A stretch of 27,063 nt of DNA from positions 1 through 27,063 of IMG/VR virus record IMGVR_UViG_3300037139_000146, one strand, 5' to 3'. The number at the start of each line of letters is the position of its first letter. The first letter of the stretch is position 1. Positions 5,903 to 24,241 of this stretch are shown piece by piece. The notes beneath the pieces are model-generated. The model saw only the letters and a program-made list of their open reading frames with translations. It did no database searches and had not been told where the DNA came from. Source of the stretch: a virus. The translations under genes were made by a program, and so were the position numbers.

Positions 5903-6262
5903 ATGGCGGCTGGGCTCTGGAACTTCACGATCGAGCAGGGTGAGTACTGGACCAAGACGCTCACGTGGAAAGACGCGAGCCTCGATCCCATCCCGCTCAC
6001 CGGATGGCACGCCATCCTCACGATCGCGCGTGAGGCGGAGAGCACACCGCAGCTCGTCATCAGCGACACCACGACGGGGATCGTCCTGGGAGGCGACGCC
6101 GGCACGATCGCGATGACGATCGACCTGACCGGCGAAGACGAATCGCTCCCGCTGCTCACGACCGGCAATCCGCGCTATTGGCTCAACCTCATTGCGCCCG
6201 GCGGCCAGATGCGGCCGTTCTTCCGCGGCCGGTTCTTGGTTCGGCCAGACCCGAGCGCGTAG
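5903..6262 (+). CDS. Putative tail appendage/baseplate-type protein
   Basis: 119 residues from ATG 5903; the upstream region has only a weak Shine-Dalgarno match. The pattern is 'FTIEQGEYWTKTLTWKDA...PIPLTGWHAILTIARE', followed by short strands ('TTTGIVLGG', 'TIAMTIDLTG') and a final 'YWLNLIAPGGQMRPFFRGRFLVRPD'. Many phages encode such a protein just before their fibre genes, typically 'QGdtf..tltw.d..g.p.dLtG'. It probably folds as a beta-sandwich that anchors fibres or chaperones. No catalytic residues are evident. The fibre genes at 6264 and 6569 follow immediately. Confidence 0.7.
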   Translation: MAAGLWNFTIEQGEYWTKTLTWKDASLDPIPLTGWHAILTIAREAESTPQLVISDTTTGIVLGGDAGTIAMTIDLTGEDESLPLLTTGNPRYWLNLIAPGGQMRPFFRGRFLVRPDPSA

Positions 6263-6263
6263 G

Positions 6264-6569
6264 ATGGCCGACGACTCGCTCACCGTCGTGGTGACGGAAA
6301 ATCCGACCTATGTCGCCATCGCAGAAGACAACACGACCGTGACGATCGCGGACGACGCGCTCACGGTCGTCGACGTCGCAGAGCAGGGGCCGCCCGGACC
6401 GCCCGGCGAACAGGGGCCGCCCGGCTCAACGGAAGGCGGCAATGCGATTGAACTCGACGGCATTCCAGTCACGCTCACAAGTCCGCAGCCCAACGATGTG
6501 CTGATCTATTCCGGCGGTGCCTTTGTGAATGCACCCGCGGACAACCTGACTGACGGGGGCAATTTCTAA
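6264..6569 (+). CDS. Short fibre protein with collagen-like triplets
   Basis: 101 residues from ATG 6264, one base after the previous stop. Residues 1-40 are alternating Thr/Val strands. Residues about 41-53 are four to five Gly-x-y triplets ('QGPPGPPGEQGPPG'), the collagen-like motif used for trimeric stalks in tail fibres. The C-terminal part ('NDVLIYSGGAFVNAPADN') is a common fibre attachment segment. The stop TAA overlaps the next ATG (TAATG), so it is coupled to the long fibre gene. A trimeric stalk or linker subunit is the likely role. Confidence 0.75.
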   Translation: MADDSLTVVVTENPTYVAIAEDNTTVTIADDALTVVDVAEQGPPGPPGEQGPPGSTEGGNAIELDGIPVTLTSPQPNDVLIYSGGAFVNAPADNLTDGGNF

Positions 6570-13949: not shown

Positions 13950-16520
13950 GTGGCGTACTCGCTCCGCCGGGCCGTCCAACGCGTGGCGGCCCGCGCGATC
14001 AACTGGGCCGCCAACGATCCCTACGCCCGGGGCCAACTCCACGACGCGCTCGCGCACGCGTTCGGCATCGCGCTGGGCGACCGACACCCGCGGACGATCC
14101 AGCAAATGCTGGTCAATACGTCGTGGGTGTTCGCCGCGAATCGCCAGATCGCGGGCCGCGGCGCGCGCGTCAAACCCGTGCTCGAGTTCTGTACGCGGGA
14201 ACGGAACAAGCCGGTCAAGCGGACGCCGGCGCATGAGCACCCGTGGCTCGACTTGGTGGCGAGTCCCAACGTCGACGAGTCGGGGATGACGTTCCTCTGG
14301 CGGCAGATTCTCTTGCTCAATACCGCCGGCTCCTACGTCGTCGCGGTCGAGCCCCAGGTGATCGACTTCACCCCGCTCGGCATTAACTTCAAGACCACCC
14401 GGATCGCGGGCTTACGGCTCTTAGAGATCGAGCGCACGCGCGTGTATTCCTCCGAGCGGCGGCTCGTCGCCGGGTTCAACTACACCTCCCCACTCGGGTG
14501 GGTCAAGTTCTACCCCGCGCACCCGGCGACGTACGAGGAGCGGGAAGGGTGGAAGCGGAACCCGACGCCGTTCGCGTTCCGCGTGGTGATGCCCTCGCCG
14601 GATAGCTACGACGGCCAGTCGGTGACACAGGCCGCCGAACAGGCGATCAACACCAGCCAGGGCATTAACCAGCTCCACCAAAATAAGCTCTATAACGGCA
14701 TGCACAACGATCTCATCTTCTTCTTGAAAAAGAAGGGGATGGACGATATCAAGCGGTTCGAGGAGGCCGTCCTCAAGATCAAGGCGGGGATCGGGAAGGC
14801 GGGCGATCCGATCGTGTTGCCGGAGGAGTTGGTGACGGTCGCGCCGAATCCGACCAAGATGTCGGACATGCAGTTCCCGAAGATGGCCGAGGCCGCGCGG
14901 CACGAGATCCTGGCCGTCATGGGCGCCTCGGACGGGATGCTGGGATTGGTCGCGGATGTCAACCGCGCGAACGGCGACGCGCTCGAGCGGCTGTTGGCGA
15001 TGGGGACGATCGACCCGATTTTGGCGCTGATCGCCGACGGCTATAACAACGCGCTCCTCCCCCTCTACGCCGCGCAGTCGACGCACTCGTGGTACGAGGC
15101 GCGGTTCCCCTCGGCGTTGGTGCAGGACGAGACGGTGCAGGCGACCAACCTCAAGATGTTGGTCGGCGGCACGATTATGACGCCGAACGAGGCGCGCGAG
15201 AAGATCAACTTGCCGGCCGTCGCGGACGGCACGGACTTGGTCGGCGGCAACCGCTCGGAGCCGCTGGCGCTGATCGCGGCCGCGGCGGGCACGACCGACA
15301 CGCTCGCGGAAATGACGATGCCCAAGGGCGACGCCGGCTCCGTCGACCCGGTGGACGCGGGCGACGAGCCGACCGACCAGGGCAACGACGCGCCGGACCG
15401 CGCACGCGCGGCGGCGCTGCCCGAGCACGCGGCGATGTTCCCGCTCACGATCGACATCGGGTCGGGCGGCGATGTGCTGGTGGGCAAGGAGATCGCGACC
15501 AAGCATGACGCGGCCCCCGCAGCGGACACCGCCGGCACCGCGCCCCGCACCGCGTCGCTCCGCGCCGGGCACCGGTTGTCGACGAGCGACGCGCGGCACG
15601 CGCGGTGGGCCGACGACATGGAGACCCACGCGGGCTACGCGCGGCAACTCCGCGCGCGGGTCGCCAAGGTGTTCCGCGCGTGGCAGTCGGATGTGCAGTC
15701 GGTGTTGGAGACCGGAGGGGCGGCGATCCTCATGGCGGATCTCCGGCGGGGGACGGCACGCGCCGCCGGGGACGATGACACGCAGCACCGGCTGCAGGAT
15801 ATCGCGGTCTGGATCGCCGCACTCCGGACCGAATATCGGCCGTGGGCCCGGGCGCTCGTGCTCGACCAGATCGAGCGCACGTTCGACGACCTGGGGATCG
15901 ACGCCAGTCAGTTGGACGCCGACGATCCGGCGGTCGACCGGTGGGTGGAGATGCGGGCCGACGCGTTCGCCGCGCAGGTCGCGACCACGCAGCAGCAGGC
16001 GATCGTCGACGGGATGACGGACTCGCTGGCCGATAACCTGGACAGCGACGACATCTCAGACGCGGCGGACGACTGGTTCCCGAACGCGAACAGCGGCCGC
16101 GCGCGCCGGATCGGGACAACCGAGACGACGATCGGGGCAGGCGCCGGCGTGTTCCTCGGAGTCGCGGCCGCGCGGCGCACGTTGTCGGACCCCAACGTCG
16201 ACGCCGCCGCGCTCACCGGCGACGCGGCAGACGTGACCGACGACTTCGGGTCGGGCGCGTCCGACCACGTGGGCCTGATGTGGCTGTCGCAGCGCGACAA
16301 CAGGGTCCGGGAGACGCATGTCGAGGCGGACGGCCAGGTCGTGGTCGCCGGCGATGTGTTCACGGTCGGCGGCTATCAGATGAACTTCCCCGGCGATGAC
16401 TCGCTCGGCGCCGGGCCCGAAGAAATCTGCGAGTGTCGCTGCGACGCGGTCGCGGTCCCGCTCGACCTCTCGGACGACCCGGCGGATACGAGCGACGGCA
16501 AAGAGGCGGAGGCGGAATAA
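13950..16520 (+). CDS. Portal protein fused to a MuF-like minor head protein
   Basis: 856 residues from GTG 13950 with GAGG at 13938-13941. Residues about 30-430 are a phage portal: 'WVFAANRQIAGRGARVKPVL', a wing-type region with 'NDLIFFLKKKGMDDIKRFE', and 'EILAVMGASDGMLGLVADVN', a classic portal segment. The portal forms the dodecameric DNA channel at a capsid vertex. A disordered acidic/Ala region (430-540) links to residues 540-856, which carry the MuF-like signature 'WLSQRDNRVRETHVEADGQ' near 775 and a C-terminal 'EEICECRCDAV'. MuF is normally a separate minor capsid protein. Its stop TAA overlaps the next ATG. No terminase precedes it. Confidence 0.85.
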   Translation: MAYSLRRAVQRVAARAINWAANDPYARGQLHDALAHAFGIALGDRHPRTIQQMLVNTSWVFAANRQIAGRGARVKPVLEFCTRERNKPVKRTPAHEHPWLDLVASPNVDESGMTFLWRQILLLNTAGSYVVAVEPQVIDFTPLGINFKTTRIAGLRLLEIERTRVYSSERRLVAGFNYTSPLGWVKFYPAHPATYEEREGWKRNPTPFAFRVVMPSPDSYDGQSVTQAAEQAINTSQGINQLHQNKLYNGMHNDLIFFLKKKGMDDIKRFEEAVLKIKAGIGKAGDPIVLPEELVTVAPNPTKMSDMQFPKMAEAARHEILAVMGASDGMLGLVADVNRANGDALERLLAMGTIDPILALIADGYNNALLPLYAAQSTHSWYEARFPSALVQDETVQATNLKMLVGGTIMTPNEAREKINLPAVADGTDLVGGNRSEPLALIAAAAGTTDTLAEMTMPKGDAGSVDPVDAGDEPTDQGNDAPDRARAAALPEHAAMFPLTIDIGSGGDVLVGKEIATKHDAAPAADTAGTAPRTASLRAGHRLSTSDARHARWADDMETHAGYARQLRARVAKVFRAWQSDVQSVLETGGAAILMADLRRGTARAAGDDDTQHRLQDIAVWIAALRTEYRPWARALVLDQIERTFDDLGIDASQLDADDPAVDRWVEMRADAFAAQVATTQQQAIVDGMTDSLADNLDSDDISDAADDWFPNANSGRARRIGTTETTIGAGAGVFLGVAAARRTLSDPNVDAAALTGDAADVTDDFGSGASDHVGLMWLSQRDNRVRETHVEADGQVVVAGDVFTVGGYQMNFPGDDSLGAGPEEICECRCDAVAVPLDLSDDPADTSDGKEAEAE

Positions 16521-16771
16521 TGCCGCCCTGCCGGATCGCGCTCAACGACCGCATCTGCGAGTTCCCGTGCAAGCTGCGACCCGGGGACATCTGCCACGTC
16601 CCGCTCACATGCCCGGAGGAACCGCGCGGGTGGGTGTGGGACGGCAATCGCGAGGCGCCGACGCTCACGCCATCGATCGCGTGCCATGGGTACAAAGACC
16701 GAGAGGGAACGCTTCGGCAGGAGTGCGGCCTCCACATGCATATCCGAGACGGACAGGTCGTCCCCTGTTGA
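16520..16771 (+). CDS. Small Cys-rich phage protein
   Basis: 83 residues from an ATG in the TAATG overlap with the portal gene. It carries C-x8-C pairs ('CRIALNDRICEFPC', 'GDICHVPLTC'), the core 'GWVWDGNREAPTLTPSIACHG', and 'CGLHMHIRDGQVVPC' at the end. The 'W.W.GN...PTLTPS' pattern followed by C-x-x-H is a family I have seen in many phages without an assigned role; metal binding is likely. It sits between portal and protease and is probably made with the head proteins. Confidence 0.68.
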   Translation: MPPCRIALNDRICEFPCKLRPGDICHVPLTCPEEPRGWVWDGNREAPTLTPSIACHGYKDREGTLRQECGLHMHIRDGQVVPC

Positions 16772-16929: not shown

Positions 16930-18732
16930 ATGGCCGTCGCTCACGTCGCTCGCGAAGCCCGCGCCACACTGATCCGCGCCCCAGGCGACGGATCGCGCGT
17001 CGCGCCCAACGGCGCCGCGTACGATCACCGCTTCGTCGCGGCGACCGAGCGACTGGCCACGGACGGCGGCGTGATCCTCCTCTCCGCCTGGCGCTTCGCC
17101 GACTACCAGCTCCGCCCGGTCGTCGTCGACCAGCACGACATCTACGGCTGGAAGCCGCTCACCGATGCGGTGCTCGGTCGCACCGTGTGTATCGGGCTCG
17201 AGGCGGGACTCCCGCCCGAGATGGTCGGCCCCTCCGGTCAGGCGCTCGTCGCCTACGTCCTCTGGGCGCGGACCGAGTACGGCCAAGAAGTCCGGTCGCT
17301 CTACGAAGACGGGATGCTGAACGACGTGTCGGTCCGGTGGGATCCCTCCACGACCGGCATGCGGGACCCGTCCGCCGCCGAAGTCGCGGCCTACGGCGTC
17401 GGCACCGAGTGGGTGTGTACGCTCGCCAACCTGGTGGAGATCAGCGCCGTCATGTTCGGCGCCGACCCGGGTGCGCAGGCGCTCCGTACCGGCGCGGGCC
17501 GCACGCGACTCCACAAGGTCCGCCACCGCGCGGTCCTGAACGCCAAAGCGGTCGCACAGGCGATCGCCGCACGCTATTCGACGCGCGGCCCGGCGCAAGA
17601 CACCGCGATCACCTCCGACGCCACCACGAACACGGGGGCGACGGGTCTCTCCGGGACCGGCAACGCCACGCAGGTCGGCGGGACCGAGTACCCGCATGCG
17701 GTGCTCGACGGCGGGCCGGCGTGCGGCCGCTGCGGGCTCCGGTGCTGCGAGGTGTGCGTCGGGGACGTGTGCACCGGGACGTGTTGCGACCGCTGCGCGC
17801 AGGAGCGCGCGCGGGCGGATGCCGAGCGCACCGCGGCCACCTGCGGCAACTGCGACGATTCGTGCTGCGACGACTGCGACTCCGCGTCCTGCGAGGGCGA
17901 CTGTTGCGAGCGGTGTGACGAGATGCGGGGCGCGGACCCGGATGACCAACAGGACTTGGGGTTCGACGCCACGACGGGCGAGGGCGCGACCACCGATCTC
18001 CGGGATGACGACGGGGCCGGCGGCGCGGATCGTGGGGCCACACCCGCGACCACTGCACCGGTCGATCCGCCGGCCGTCGTCGTGTCACCCGCAGTCGCTC
18101 CGGCTGTCGCGCCAGTGGCTGATGCCGCCGCGCCGCGCGCGGTGTCGCATCCCGATTGTGCTGCGTGCGCGGCGCGCGCCGCGCGAGGCCAAGTCGATGG
18201 CGCGGCCGCCGCGGCCGCGATCGGCGCGATCGGCGACGCGTTCGATGCGATGGCCACGCTCGCGACCGCGACGATGACCGTGCTCGAGGCGGGCGCCTCC
18301 TCGCTCGACGAGCTCGAAAACTTGGTGGGCCCGAGCGCGGACGTGCAGAACGCCGTCGACGCCGCCAGCGATGTGCAGGCGTCGACCACGACCGCCGTCG
18401 GCGGCACGCCCGCGCCGACCTCGAAGCCCGCAGCGAAGCCTGCGGCAACACCGGCCGCGAAGCCCGCAGCAAAGCCGGCAGCGAAACCCGCGGCCAAAAG
18501 CACCAAGGGTCGGACCGTGCTCTCGGTCGCCGACGCGGCACTCCGCGTCCGGCGCGCCGCGGCCGATCTCCGCGCGGCCAATCGGATCGCGGCCGAGCAG
18601 GCACGCGCCACACCCGACGCACCCGACGCACCCAAGCAGGCGCCGACAGGCAGCGCAGCGGTGGATCCGCCGTTTCTGGATTTCAGCAGGCTCGCGGCGG
18701 TGCCGACCACAGGTAGGTCAACAGCCACGTAG
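16930..18732 (+). CDS. Prohead protease with duplicated Cys-rich module and scaffold-like tail
   Basis: 600 residues. ATG 16930 (GGGAG at 16921-16925) is preferred; upstream starts would lie in the hairpin leader. Residues 1-185 resemble an HK97-type prohead protease: 'ILLSAWRFADYQLRPVVVDQ' ending at His69, 'LNDVSVRWDP' with Ser134, and 'LVEISAVMFGADPGA' with Ser172 as catalytic candidates. Residues 265-289 and 305-329 are two copies of a nine-cysteine unit, C-x2-C-x3-C-C-x2-C-x4-C-x3-C-C-x2-C. Residues 400-600 are Ala-rich, helical and contain KPAA repeats, as expected for a scaffold. The protein precedes the major capsid gene, which supports protease-scaffold function. The Cys module is unusual for this role. 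Confidence 0.75.
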   Translation: MAVAHVAREARATLIRAPGDGSRVAPNGAAYDHRFVAATERLATDGGVILLSAWRFADYQLRPVVVDQHDIYGWKPLTDAVLGRTVCIGLEAGLPPEMVGPSGQALVAYVLWARTEYGQEVRSLYEDGMLNDVSVRWDPSTTGMRDPSAAEVAAYGVGTEWVCTLANLVEISAVMFGADPGAQALRTGAGRTRLHKVRHRAVLNAKAVAQAIAARYSTRGPAQDTAITSDATTNTGATGLSGTGNATQVGGTEYPHAVLDGGPACGRCGLRCCEVCVGDVCTGTCCDRCAQERARADAERTAATCGNCDDSCCDDCDSASCEGDCCERCDEMRGADPDDQQDLGFDATTGEGATTDLRDDDGAGGADRGATPATTAPVDPPAVVVSPAVAPAVAPVADAAAPRAVSHPDCAACAARAARGQVDGAAAAAAIGAIGDAFDAMATLATATMTVLEAGASSLDELENLVGPSADVQNAVDAASDVQASTTTAVGGTPAPTSKPAAKPAATPAAKPAAKPAAKPAAKSTKGRTVLSVADAALRVRRAAADLRAANRIAAEQARATPDAPDAPKQAPTGSAAVDPPFLDFSRLAAVPTTGRSTAT

Positions 18733-18849: not shown

Positions 18850-20217
18850 ATGGCCGCAACGATCAACACGATTGAGGAGTTTCGCGCGCACGTCCTGAAG
18901 GAACTGCCGTCGATTCTCGCAGAGAATCCGCAGGTCGTGCTCGACGCGATGGCGAAGAATCCCGAGGCCATGCGTGCCTCGCTCACCAAGATGGGCTACA
19001 TCGTCAGCGATGACGTGAAGACCATCGCGAGCGAGACGATGACCACGCTCCGCGATCGCCAGGAGACCGGCTCGATCGCGTCCGGCTTCGGCACGCGCAC
19101 GCGGGAGAAGGTGCGCATGCACGCGCGCCGGGTGTTGGACGAGGACACCGGCAAGCAGCGCACCACGTACCTGGACGCCGAGACCGAGCCGCTCGCGGGC
19201 CAGTGGATCCGCGCCTTCTTCGCCTCGAAGGGCGGGGGCGAGGCGAAGGACCCGGTGACCGGCGACCATATCGGCGTGATCGCCGAGCGGATGGCGAAGG
19301 CCACCCGCGCGCCGGCCACCCCGATGACGGCGGAAGCCGGCACGGGCGGCGGGTTCTTGGTTCCCCTGTTGGTCGCGGCCGAGGTGTTCGAGTACATGAA
19401 CGAACGCTTCCTGCTCCGCGGCATGGTGCAGGTGTTCGTCTCGGCCGCCCCGCTCACGATCCCGCGGCGTCTGTCGCAGGTCTCGGTGTATCGCCAGGGC
19501 CCGGGCACGGACCTGACCGAGGTGAACATCGCCTCGACGTTGGGCGACGCGAAGTTGTCGCCCGAGCGCGTCGGTGCGATCACCTACGTCGATCCGGCGT
19601 TGGCCTTGGCGGCCGCGGTCGGGCCGGTGCGCTGGGTGATCGGCCAGTTGGCCGAAGCGCTGGCCAAGGACTACCAGCGGACGATCGTCATCGGGAGCGC
19701 GTCCAAGCGCGAGCCGCGTGGGATCTTGGGCCTCGCGACCTCTGGCCTGCCGCTGGCCGACATGGCGCAGACCTCGACGTACGACAACACGTCGAACCAG
19801 ACCAAGCGCGACTCGATCCGGAAACTGTACTACAAGGTCAACCAGCCGCACCGTGAGTCGCCGCGGTTCGTGTGGATCACGAACAACGACGGCGTGCAGA
19901 CGATGAACTCGGTCAACGACTTGAACCAACAGCCGTTCACCGACGCGAAGGAAGGCCAGCCGCCGAAGTACATCGGCAAGACCGTCGTCGAGACCTTGGC
20001 GATCGTGTCGGCGACGGGCCCGGAGAGCACCACGCTCGTCGGCGGGGACATGGGCCAGTACGCGTGGCTCGAGTCGCCGGACGGGCTCACCATGCAGCAG
20101 ACCACCGAGGGTGGCCAGGCGTGGTCGAGCGACACGATCGGCATCAAGATCCTGCAGCGCGTCGACGGGGAGCCGGTGATCCCGCAGGCGTTCTGCTCCA
20201 TGACCGGCGTCAACTAG
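18850..20217 (+). CDS. Major capsid protein (HK97 fold)
   Basis: 455 residues. ATG 18850 is chosen because GGAGGGGGAG (18831-18840) lies upstream and no better start exists. The N-terminal 170 residues form a charged helical delta-like region ('HVLKELPSILAENPQVVLD'). The remainder shows HK97-fold hallmarks: 'AGTGGGFLVPLLVAAEVFEY', 'RLSQVSVYRQGPGT', 'AKDYQRTIVIGSAS', 'EPRGILGLATSG' and a final 'GEPVIPQAFCSMTGVN'. It makes the icosahedral shell; the N-terminal part is probably removed by the upstream protease. It is expressed with the protease and small downstream head proteins. Confidence 0.92.
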   Translation: MAATINTIEEFRAHVLKELPSILAENPQVVLDAMAKNPEAMRASLTKMGYIVSDDVKTIASETMTTLRDRQETGSIASGFGTRTREKVRMHARRVLDEDTGKQRTTYLDAETEPLAGQWIRAFFASKGGGEAKDPVTGDHIGVIAERMAKATRAPATPMTAEAGTGGGFLVPLLVAAEVFEYMNERFLLRGMVQVFVSAAPLTIPRRLSQVSVYRQGPGTDLTEVNIASTLGDAKLSPERVGAITYVDPALALAAAVGPVRWVIGQLAEALAKDYQRTIVIGSASKREPRGILGLATSGLPLADMAQTSTYDNTSNQTKRDSIRKLYYKVNQPHRESPRFVWITNNDGVQTMNSVNDLNQQPFTDAKEGQPPKYIGKTVVETLAIVSATGPESTTLVGGDMGQYAWLESPDGLTMQQTTEGGQAWSSDTIGIKILQRVDGEPVIPQAFCSMTGVN

Positions 20218-23133: not shown

Positions 23134-23553
23134 ATGGCGTTTTTCCGCGGGATTGACGGGTCGCTCATGGTCGCGACCAATGTGCTGGGTCAGCTCAAGG
23201 CGTGGGAGCTGAACATCGACATCAAGAACCTCGACACCTCGGCCGTGGGCCAGGCATGGGCGACCTCGGTCACCGAGATCGGGTCGTGGAACGGGAGCCT
23301 CGAGTGCTATCTCGATGGCAGCTCCGGTCAGGCCGCGCAGGCCGCGCTCCTGGCCGCCAGCACCGGCGCGACGCCGGGCGGCGCGGGGATCGCCATCAAG
23401 TTCGTCGCCGCATCGACGAGCGGGAGCCCGGTCAGCTACTTCGCCGGCACCGTCAACGTCAAGCAGATCCAGACGGGCGTCAAGGTCGGTGGCGTCGATA
23501 TGGTCAAGTTCACGTTCCAGGGGACCGGGGAACTCGACATCACCTGGGCATAA
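23134..23553 (+). CDS. Tail tube protein 1
   Basis: 139 residues from ATG 23134 with GGAGG immediately upstream (23128-23133, which abuts the start). The N-terminus 'MAFFRGIDGSLMV' is nearly the same as that of the next gene. The core shows the tail tube pattern 'AWELNIDIKNLDTSAVGQAW', 'SVTEIGSWNGSLECYLDGSS' and a final 'VKFTFQGTGELDITW'. Such proteins stack as hexameric rings around the tape measure. It lies behind a structured leader for strong expression. The tandem paralogue makes it unclear which one is the main tube subunit. Confidence 0.75.
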   Translation: MAFFRGIDGSLMVATNVLGQLKAWELNIDIKNLDTSAVGQAWATSVTEIGSWNGSLECYLDGSSGQAAQAALLAASTGATPGGAGIAIKFVAASTSGSPVSYFAGTVNVKQIQTGVKVGGVDMVKFTFQGTGELDITWA

Positions 23554-23566
23554 AGGCGCTTAGGCC

Positions 23567-24241
23567 ATGGCCTTCTTCCGCGGGATTGACGGATTCATTG
23601 CCGTGGGCGGCGCGCTGGTGGGCGCCCCCACGGTCAACGGTGCCCTCACCGCCGGCGCCGTCACACTCAACATCGACGTGGCGAGCGGCGTGCTGCTCGG
23701 CGTCGTGGCCGCCGGCGACACCTTCACGATTGCCGGCGAGACCGGGTCACCGGTCCACACGGTCACCAGTCCGGTGCCCGTCGTCGCCGCGACCAATGCC
23801 ATTGCGGGCGTGACGTTCACGCCAGCGATCGCGACGGGCGGGACGCTCACGGGCGCCGTGATGACGTTCGCGAGCAACGCGCTCCCACAGGCGACCGGAT
23901 GGGACCTGGACATCCAGATCAAGGATTTGGAGACCACGTCGCTGGGTGACAAGTGGCGCTCGAGCGTCACCGAGATCGCGTCCTGGAGCGGCAGTCTCGC
24001 GATGCGACTCGACTACAGCCTCCCAGCGCAAGCCGCGGTGTTCAATCGACTGAGCGGCGCGACCCCGGGCGGCATCCTCGGCACGATCGTGCTGGGCGTC
24101 GGGCAGGGCGCGACCACGTTCAAGGCGGCAGTCGGTGCGGCGGAGTTCAAGAGCGCCGCGCTCAAGAACCAGATCGGCGCGATCCTCGACGTCAAGGTCG
24201 CGTTCACCGGCACGGGACAGCTCTCGCTGTTGTGGACGTAG
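23567..24241 (+). CDS. Tail tube paralogue with an inserted beta domain
   Basis: 224 residues from ATG 23567, 13 bases after tube 1. Residues 1-9 and about 108-224 align with tube 1 ('TGWDLDIQIKDLETTSLGDK', 'SSVTEIASWSGSLAMRLDYS', 'VKVAFTGTGQLSLLWT'). Residues about 19-107 are an extra domain rich in Ala, Val and Thr, with 'VTLNIDVASGVLLGVV' and 'GVTFTPAIATGG', without a counterpart in tube 1. It may decorate the tube or form a special ring. Alternatively this is the major tube and tube 1 a shortened relative. Confidence 0.75.
   Translation: MAFFRGIDGFIAVGGALVGAPTVNGALTAGAVTLNIDVASGVLLGVVAAGDTFTIAGETGSPVHTVTSPVPVVAATNAIAGVTFTPAIATGGTLTGAVMTFASNALPQATGWDLDIQIKDLETTSLGDKWRSSVTEIASWSGSLAMRLDYSLPAQAAVFNRLSGATPGGILGTIVLGVGQGATTFKAAVGAAEFKSAALKNQIGAILDVKVAFTGTGQLSLLWT

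Follow-up and report, generated by a model that had tools for sequence, protein, structure and literature searches.

The 27,063-nucleotide stretch of viral DNA that was analysed (the window; IMG/VR record IMGVR_UViG_3300037139_000146) contained a gene whose product is best read as an HK97-like (S78-type) head protease fused to a scaffold-like extension, with a doubled nine-cysteine unit as its metal-thiolate module, most likely binding zinc (probability roughly 0.55). It is established that there are two units, in which reading frame and at which place among the head genes of the window they are encoded, and that a second phage contig (L158) carries the unit again in the corresponding slot. 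This arrangement suggests that phage head assembly includes a metal-binding component that has not been described. To our knowledge, a dedicated metal-thiolate module has been described for neither the protease nor the scaffold of HK97-type heads, and searches of the open-access literature brought up no report of one. The virus of the window infects bacteria.

Head genes of the window and the protease

The gene order was portal-MuF, a DUF6527 gene, gene 16930-18732 and then the major capsid protein (MCP). The features of this region were as follows:

13950-16520, plus strand: portal protein fused to a MuF-like domain (Phage_portal E = 1.9e-26; head morphogenesis families phrog_2662 4e-45 and phrog_2468 3e-20)
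16520-16771, plus strand: small Cys-rich DUF6527 protein between portal and protease (PF20137 E = 3.3e-8)
16930-18732, plus strand: predicted head maturation protease with a long C-terminal extension, 600 amino acids, start ATG at 16930 (translation, and slot between portal-MuF and MCP)
16987-17574, plus strand: S78-like protease domain, residues about 20-215 (alignment with five phage head proteases; PHROG 3244 E = 0.0063)
17134-17136, plus strand: H69 of the protease domain (same alignment)
17329-17331, plus strand: S134 of the protease domain (same alignment)
17437-17451, plus strand: E170-I-S172-A-V174 of the protease domain (same alignment)
17722-17796, plus strand: nine-cysteine unit 1, CGRCGLRCCEVCVGDVCTGTCCDRC, residues 265-289 (translation)
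17797-17841, plus strand: charged 15-residue spacer between the units, AQERARADAERTAAT (translation)
17842-17916, plus strand: nine-cysteine unit 2, CGNCDDSCCDDCDSASCEGDCCERC, acidic, residues 305-329 (translation)
18157-18168, plus strand: separate C-A-A-C, residues 410-413
18169-18729, plus strand: scaffold-like C-terminal part with an Ala-rich stretch, an (A)AKPAAKPAAK linker and a charged terminal stretch (composition only)
18850-20217, plus strand: HK97-type MCP (Phage_capsid E = 1.1e-28; TIGR01554 5e-31)

The assignment of gene 16930-18732 as a head maturation protease was supported, with its activity predicted. The original prediction of a prohead protease agreed with the gene order, with the motif positions and with weak PHROG matches, while Peptidase_S78 stayed below detection. 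Residues H69, S134 and E170/S172/V174 were invariant, and in order, in the alignment with five annotated phage head proteases. PHROG profiles of head maturation proteases matched weakly (phrog_3244 at the E-value given above; phrog_80 E = 0.05), as did a comparison with the five comparators by hhalign (probability 4.5%, E = 0.009). A Pfam search of the protease part returned no match up to E = 10 and did not reach Peptidase_S78 (PF04586). When phages were searched by tblastn, the whole protein and the module had no match, and the protease domain had phiKM1 as its sole head-protease match (E = 0.6). Fast divergence of the protease domain likely explains profile scores below the curated cut-offs; given these weak scores, the product is filed as S78-like and not as a Pfam member.

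The five comparator head proteases were 244-265 residues long and contained 0-2 Cys each, versus 600 amino acids and 22 Cys in the window protein. A long Cys-bearing extension is thus not normal for this protease type, as had been proposed for HK97-type proteases in general and as the five comparators bear out.

Other genes of the window gave observations of their own. The DUF6527 open frame (16433-16771) contained 8 Cys, and with the protein of 16520-16771 the head region may encode a second metal-binding protein. Two adjacent genes (23134-23553 and 23567-24241) encoded proteins that both start with MAFFRGIDG; the first had a weak match to major tail protein PHROGs, and the two may be tandem tail-protein paralogues. 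A small protein (6192-6569) contained a short collagen-like stretch, GPPGPPGEQGPPG.

The doubled nine-cysteine unit

The 22 Cys of the 600-residue product were located at residues 87, 163, 265, 268, 272, 273, 276, 281, 285, 286, 289, 305, 308, 312, 313, 316, 321, 325, 326, 329, 410 and 413. Eighteen of these formed units 1 and 2, which had identical spacing (C-x2-C-x3-CC-x2-C-x4-C-x3-CC-x2-C, 25 residues each). Translation of the gene thus bore out the original prediction of two 25-residue units, equal in Cys spacing and 15 residues apart; the further C-x-x-C, which it had put near residue 405, is at 410-413. At a shift of 40 residues all nine Cys superposed; when the residues of this 65-residue region were shuffled 20,000 times, only 4 shuffles gave nine Cys pairs at any one shift. 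Each unit was composed of two C-x2/4-C-x3-CC-x2-C halves with the middle Cys in common. The unit was rightly called internally repetitive and rightly said to be low in residue identity outside the cysteines, with 3 of 16 non-Cys positions identical between the two units. The spacer AQERARADAERTAAT is probably helical, as read from its residues.

A frame error, raised earlier as a possible source of the pattern, is unlikely because G+C by codon position in the module (0.62/0.68/0.93) was the same as in the remaining gene. The open reading frame was also present on three further contigs at 99.96-99.97% DNA identity, one of which (L002) spans all of it and two its 3' part. Because the copies in the window lineage hardly differ from one another, they carry no signal of selection on the Cys.

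No Pfam, NCBIfam or PDB sequence match covered the module. The CxxCxGxG repeats of PF00684 were absent from both window units, which had no Pfam match, and no metallothionein profile of Pfam or NCBIfam matched the module. Single-sequence AlphaFold2 models were poor for the window protein (mean pLDDT 36) and of low confidence for the L158 protein described below (pLDDT 58.7).

Carriers in other viruses and in cells

The main scan covered 2.9 million viral contigs with an eight-Cys version of the unit in which most non-Cys codons were barred from starting with T. Six stretches were returned: two of the window lineage, and one each in L158, L159, L160 and L161. L159 and L160 lay in short Arg/Cys-rich frames and L161 contained stops; none of the three looked gene-like. 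Without the constraint on non-Cys codons the pattern was found in more than 120 contigs, and those inspected, the window lineage excepted, were low-complexity Cys runs, many with stops. A half-unit scan and a variable-spacing scan each added, among the matches listed, mainly low-complexity artefacts. A ParB/DNA-methyltransferase-like phage protein (L199, L177) with C-G-K-C-G-G-E-C-C-K-A-C near its C-terminus, which also came from these two scans, was set aside, as it is not a head protein. Viral contigs thus rarely carry the unit, as far as these patterns can tell; they demanded near-exact spacing and, where the codon constraint applied, would miss units rich in T-initial codons.

The only other credible gene with the unit in the pattern scans of viral contigs was in L158 (IMGVR_UViG_3300009285_007812). 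Its gene order, on the minus strand, was a MuF-like gene, a methyltransferase-Tad3-XkdF protease fusion, ORF2 and an MCP (E = 1.1e-9). The XkdF protease belonged to S78_2 (E = 9.6e-27). ORF2 encoded 479 amino acids and carried CGSCGGECCPDCKDGECDGTCCDAC, with nine-Cys spacing identical to that of the window units, followed by a charged spacer and by DnaJ-type CxxCxGxG zinc-finger repeats (PF00684, DnaJ_CXXCXGXG, E = 3.2e-10); RtpA/anti-TRAP-like matches were also found. ORF2 as a split end of the L158 protease was rejected, because in PHROG 3017 the EVSLVD motif comes ahead of the protease domain, and ORF2 was consequently treated as a separate scaffold-slot protein. Two DnaJ-like phage matches of ORF2 were inspected and rejected, one being bacterial DnaJ and the other a short zinc protein outside a head context.

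BLASTP of the window protein against ORF2 gave E = 1e-7 over the module, with 42% identity over 60 residues. With the Cys held fixed, the module alignment still beat shuffles (p = 0.02), which lends modest support to a common origin of the two modules; residue similarity beyond the Cys was modest. The window MCP had no significant match to the L158 MCP (E = 0.072).

The 1488-amino-acid fusion (L158 2563-7029, minus strand) contained several D12 adenine-methyltransferase stretches, a Tad3 (Thoeris inhibitor) domain (PF25185, E = 1.8e-8) and the XkdF head protease, possibly a counter-defence domain fused to a head protease.

Searches of viral contigs and genome contigs found no diverged homologue of the window gene. 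One contig (L127) encoded an MCP 53% identical to that of the window and stopped short of the protease gene. MCP searches of genome contigs returned nothing. Searches of 296, 343 and 398 genomes from the phyla of a Streptomyces, an Aeoliella and an Acidovorax locus, respectively, returned only distant capsids, and the short flanks of these capsids contained no gene with repeated CCxxC.

Credible carriers in genome contigs were Methanosarcina proteins and one Planctomycetota protein (L141). Five Methanosarcina proteins (L137, L140, L147, L149, L151) had a signal-peptide-like start, and are therefore probably exported, and contained many tandem copies of similar Cys spacing. By pattern, such spacing was present in 7 of 31 Methanosarcina genomes. 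L137 belonged to no Pfam or NCBIfam family. The Methanosarcina repeats may form disulfides or bind other metals, a possibility that counts against the zinc reading.

Proposed function and known systems

Metal binding is the favoured, putative function of the module. C-x-x-C-G knuckles and Cys density resemble those of zinc-thiolate proteins, and prohead assembly takes place in the cytoplasm, which keeps thiols reduced. This cytoplasmic assembly, together with the occurrence of the unit in a matching slot of two phages whose capsid sequences are unrelated, in one of them beside DnaJ-type zinc fingers, favours a zinc-thiolate module within the scaffold-like extension. In the reducing cytoplasm each unit would fold around two or three zinc ions, and the two units together, being compact, would form a rigid point on the flexible extension for docking or self-association. 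Attached there to capsid, portal or another copy, the protease-scaffold would be kept inside the prohead, and at maturation the module would be cut away or expelled. The role of the module may be that of an assembly or docking element, a metal-dependent maturation step or client binding. If zinc is bound, one step of head assembly in these phages would depend on metal. The occurrence of the module in both phages, with their unrelated capsids, would further indicate that phages exchange scaffold modules. It is doubtful, though conceivable, that a mobile nine-cysteine metal-cluster module recurs in the scaffold/protease proteins of unrelated HK97-type phages as a metal-dependent assembly or maturation switch.

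It is unlikely that, instead of serving as a structural docking point, the module buffers metal like a metallothionein or is a zinc module that, like the Cys-rich domain of DnaJ, binds clients, here the capsid protein. Nine Cys per 25 residues is a metallothionein-like density, and the L158 protein has DnaJ-type repeats and RtpA/anti-TRAP-like matches. However, the window module is no free small protein but part of one chain with a protease, encoded between the portal and capsid genes, and the spacing of the module lacks both the C-x-C of classical metallothioneins and the DnaJ-like G-x-G after the knuckles.

Disulfides, either cross-linking protease-scaffold copies or fixing a small disulfide-rich fold that remains part of the particle once the cell has lysed, are still less probable. 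The very high Cys density and the probable export of the Methanosarcina proteins fit such bonds, but HK97-type proheads form in a reducing cytoplasm, scaffold and protease material is normally removed, and the L158 unit shares its chain with zinc fingers of the DnaJ type; crosslinking in cytoplasmic proheads is thus less likely than metal binding. Independent origin of the units in both phages by low-complexity repeat expansion, with no specific role, is the least probable explanation: nearly all inspected unconstrained matches were low-complexity frames and the window units share few residues outside the Cys, but both credible carriers are normally coding and in the same head-gene slot, their modules are similar (E = 1e-7), and the two window units, different elsewhere, agree in nine exact positions.

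The proposed zinc-thiolate module can be set beside several known systems. With the caudovirus prohead serine protease, Peptidase_S78 (PF04586)/PHROG 3244, the window protein shares gene order, the His, Ser and E-x-S-x-V positions and a weak PHROG match; it differs in length (600 versus about 250 amino acids), in Cys number (22 versus 0-2) and in being below Pfam detection. The central Cys-rich domain of DnaJ (PF00684) and anti-TRAP have paired C-x-x-C knuckles like the window module, and these bind zinc in DnaJ and anti-TRAP, whereas the CxxCxGxG repeat is missing from the window module and its adjacent cysteines (CC) are foreign to the DnaJ pattern. The nine-Cys beta domain of metallothionein resembles the window unit in having nine Cys in about 25-30 residues; metallothioneins, unlike the window module, have C-x-C spacing and are free small proteins. 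The Methanosarcina proteins share the C-x3-CC-x2-C-x4-C-x3-CC-x2-C spacing and the C-x-G-x-CC-[DE]-x-C wording, and differ in their signal-peptide-like start, many tandem copies and lack of a protease or phage context. L158 ORF2, from a PF14550 system, is like the window protein in its nine-Cys spacing, in a charged spacer followed by a further Cys module and in its place directly upstream of an HK97-type MCP. It differs in having one unit, with DnaJ-type CxxC knuckles in place of the second, and in being separate from the protease ORF, in a system with an S78_2 instead of an S78-like protease and an MCP without a sequence match to that of the window.
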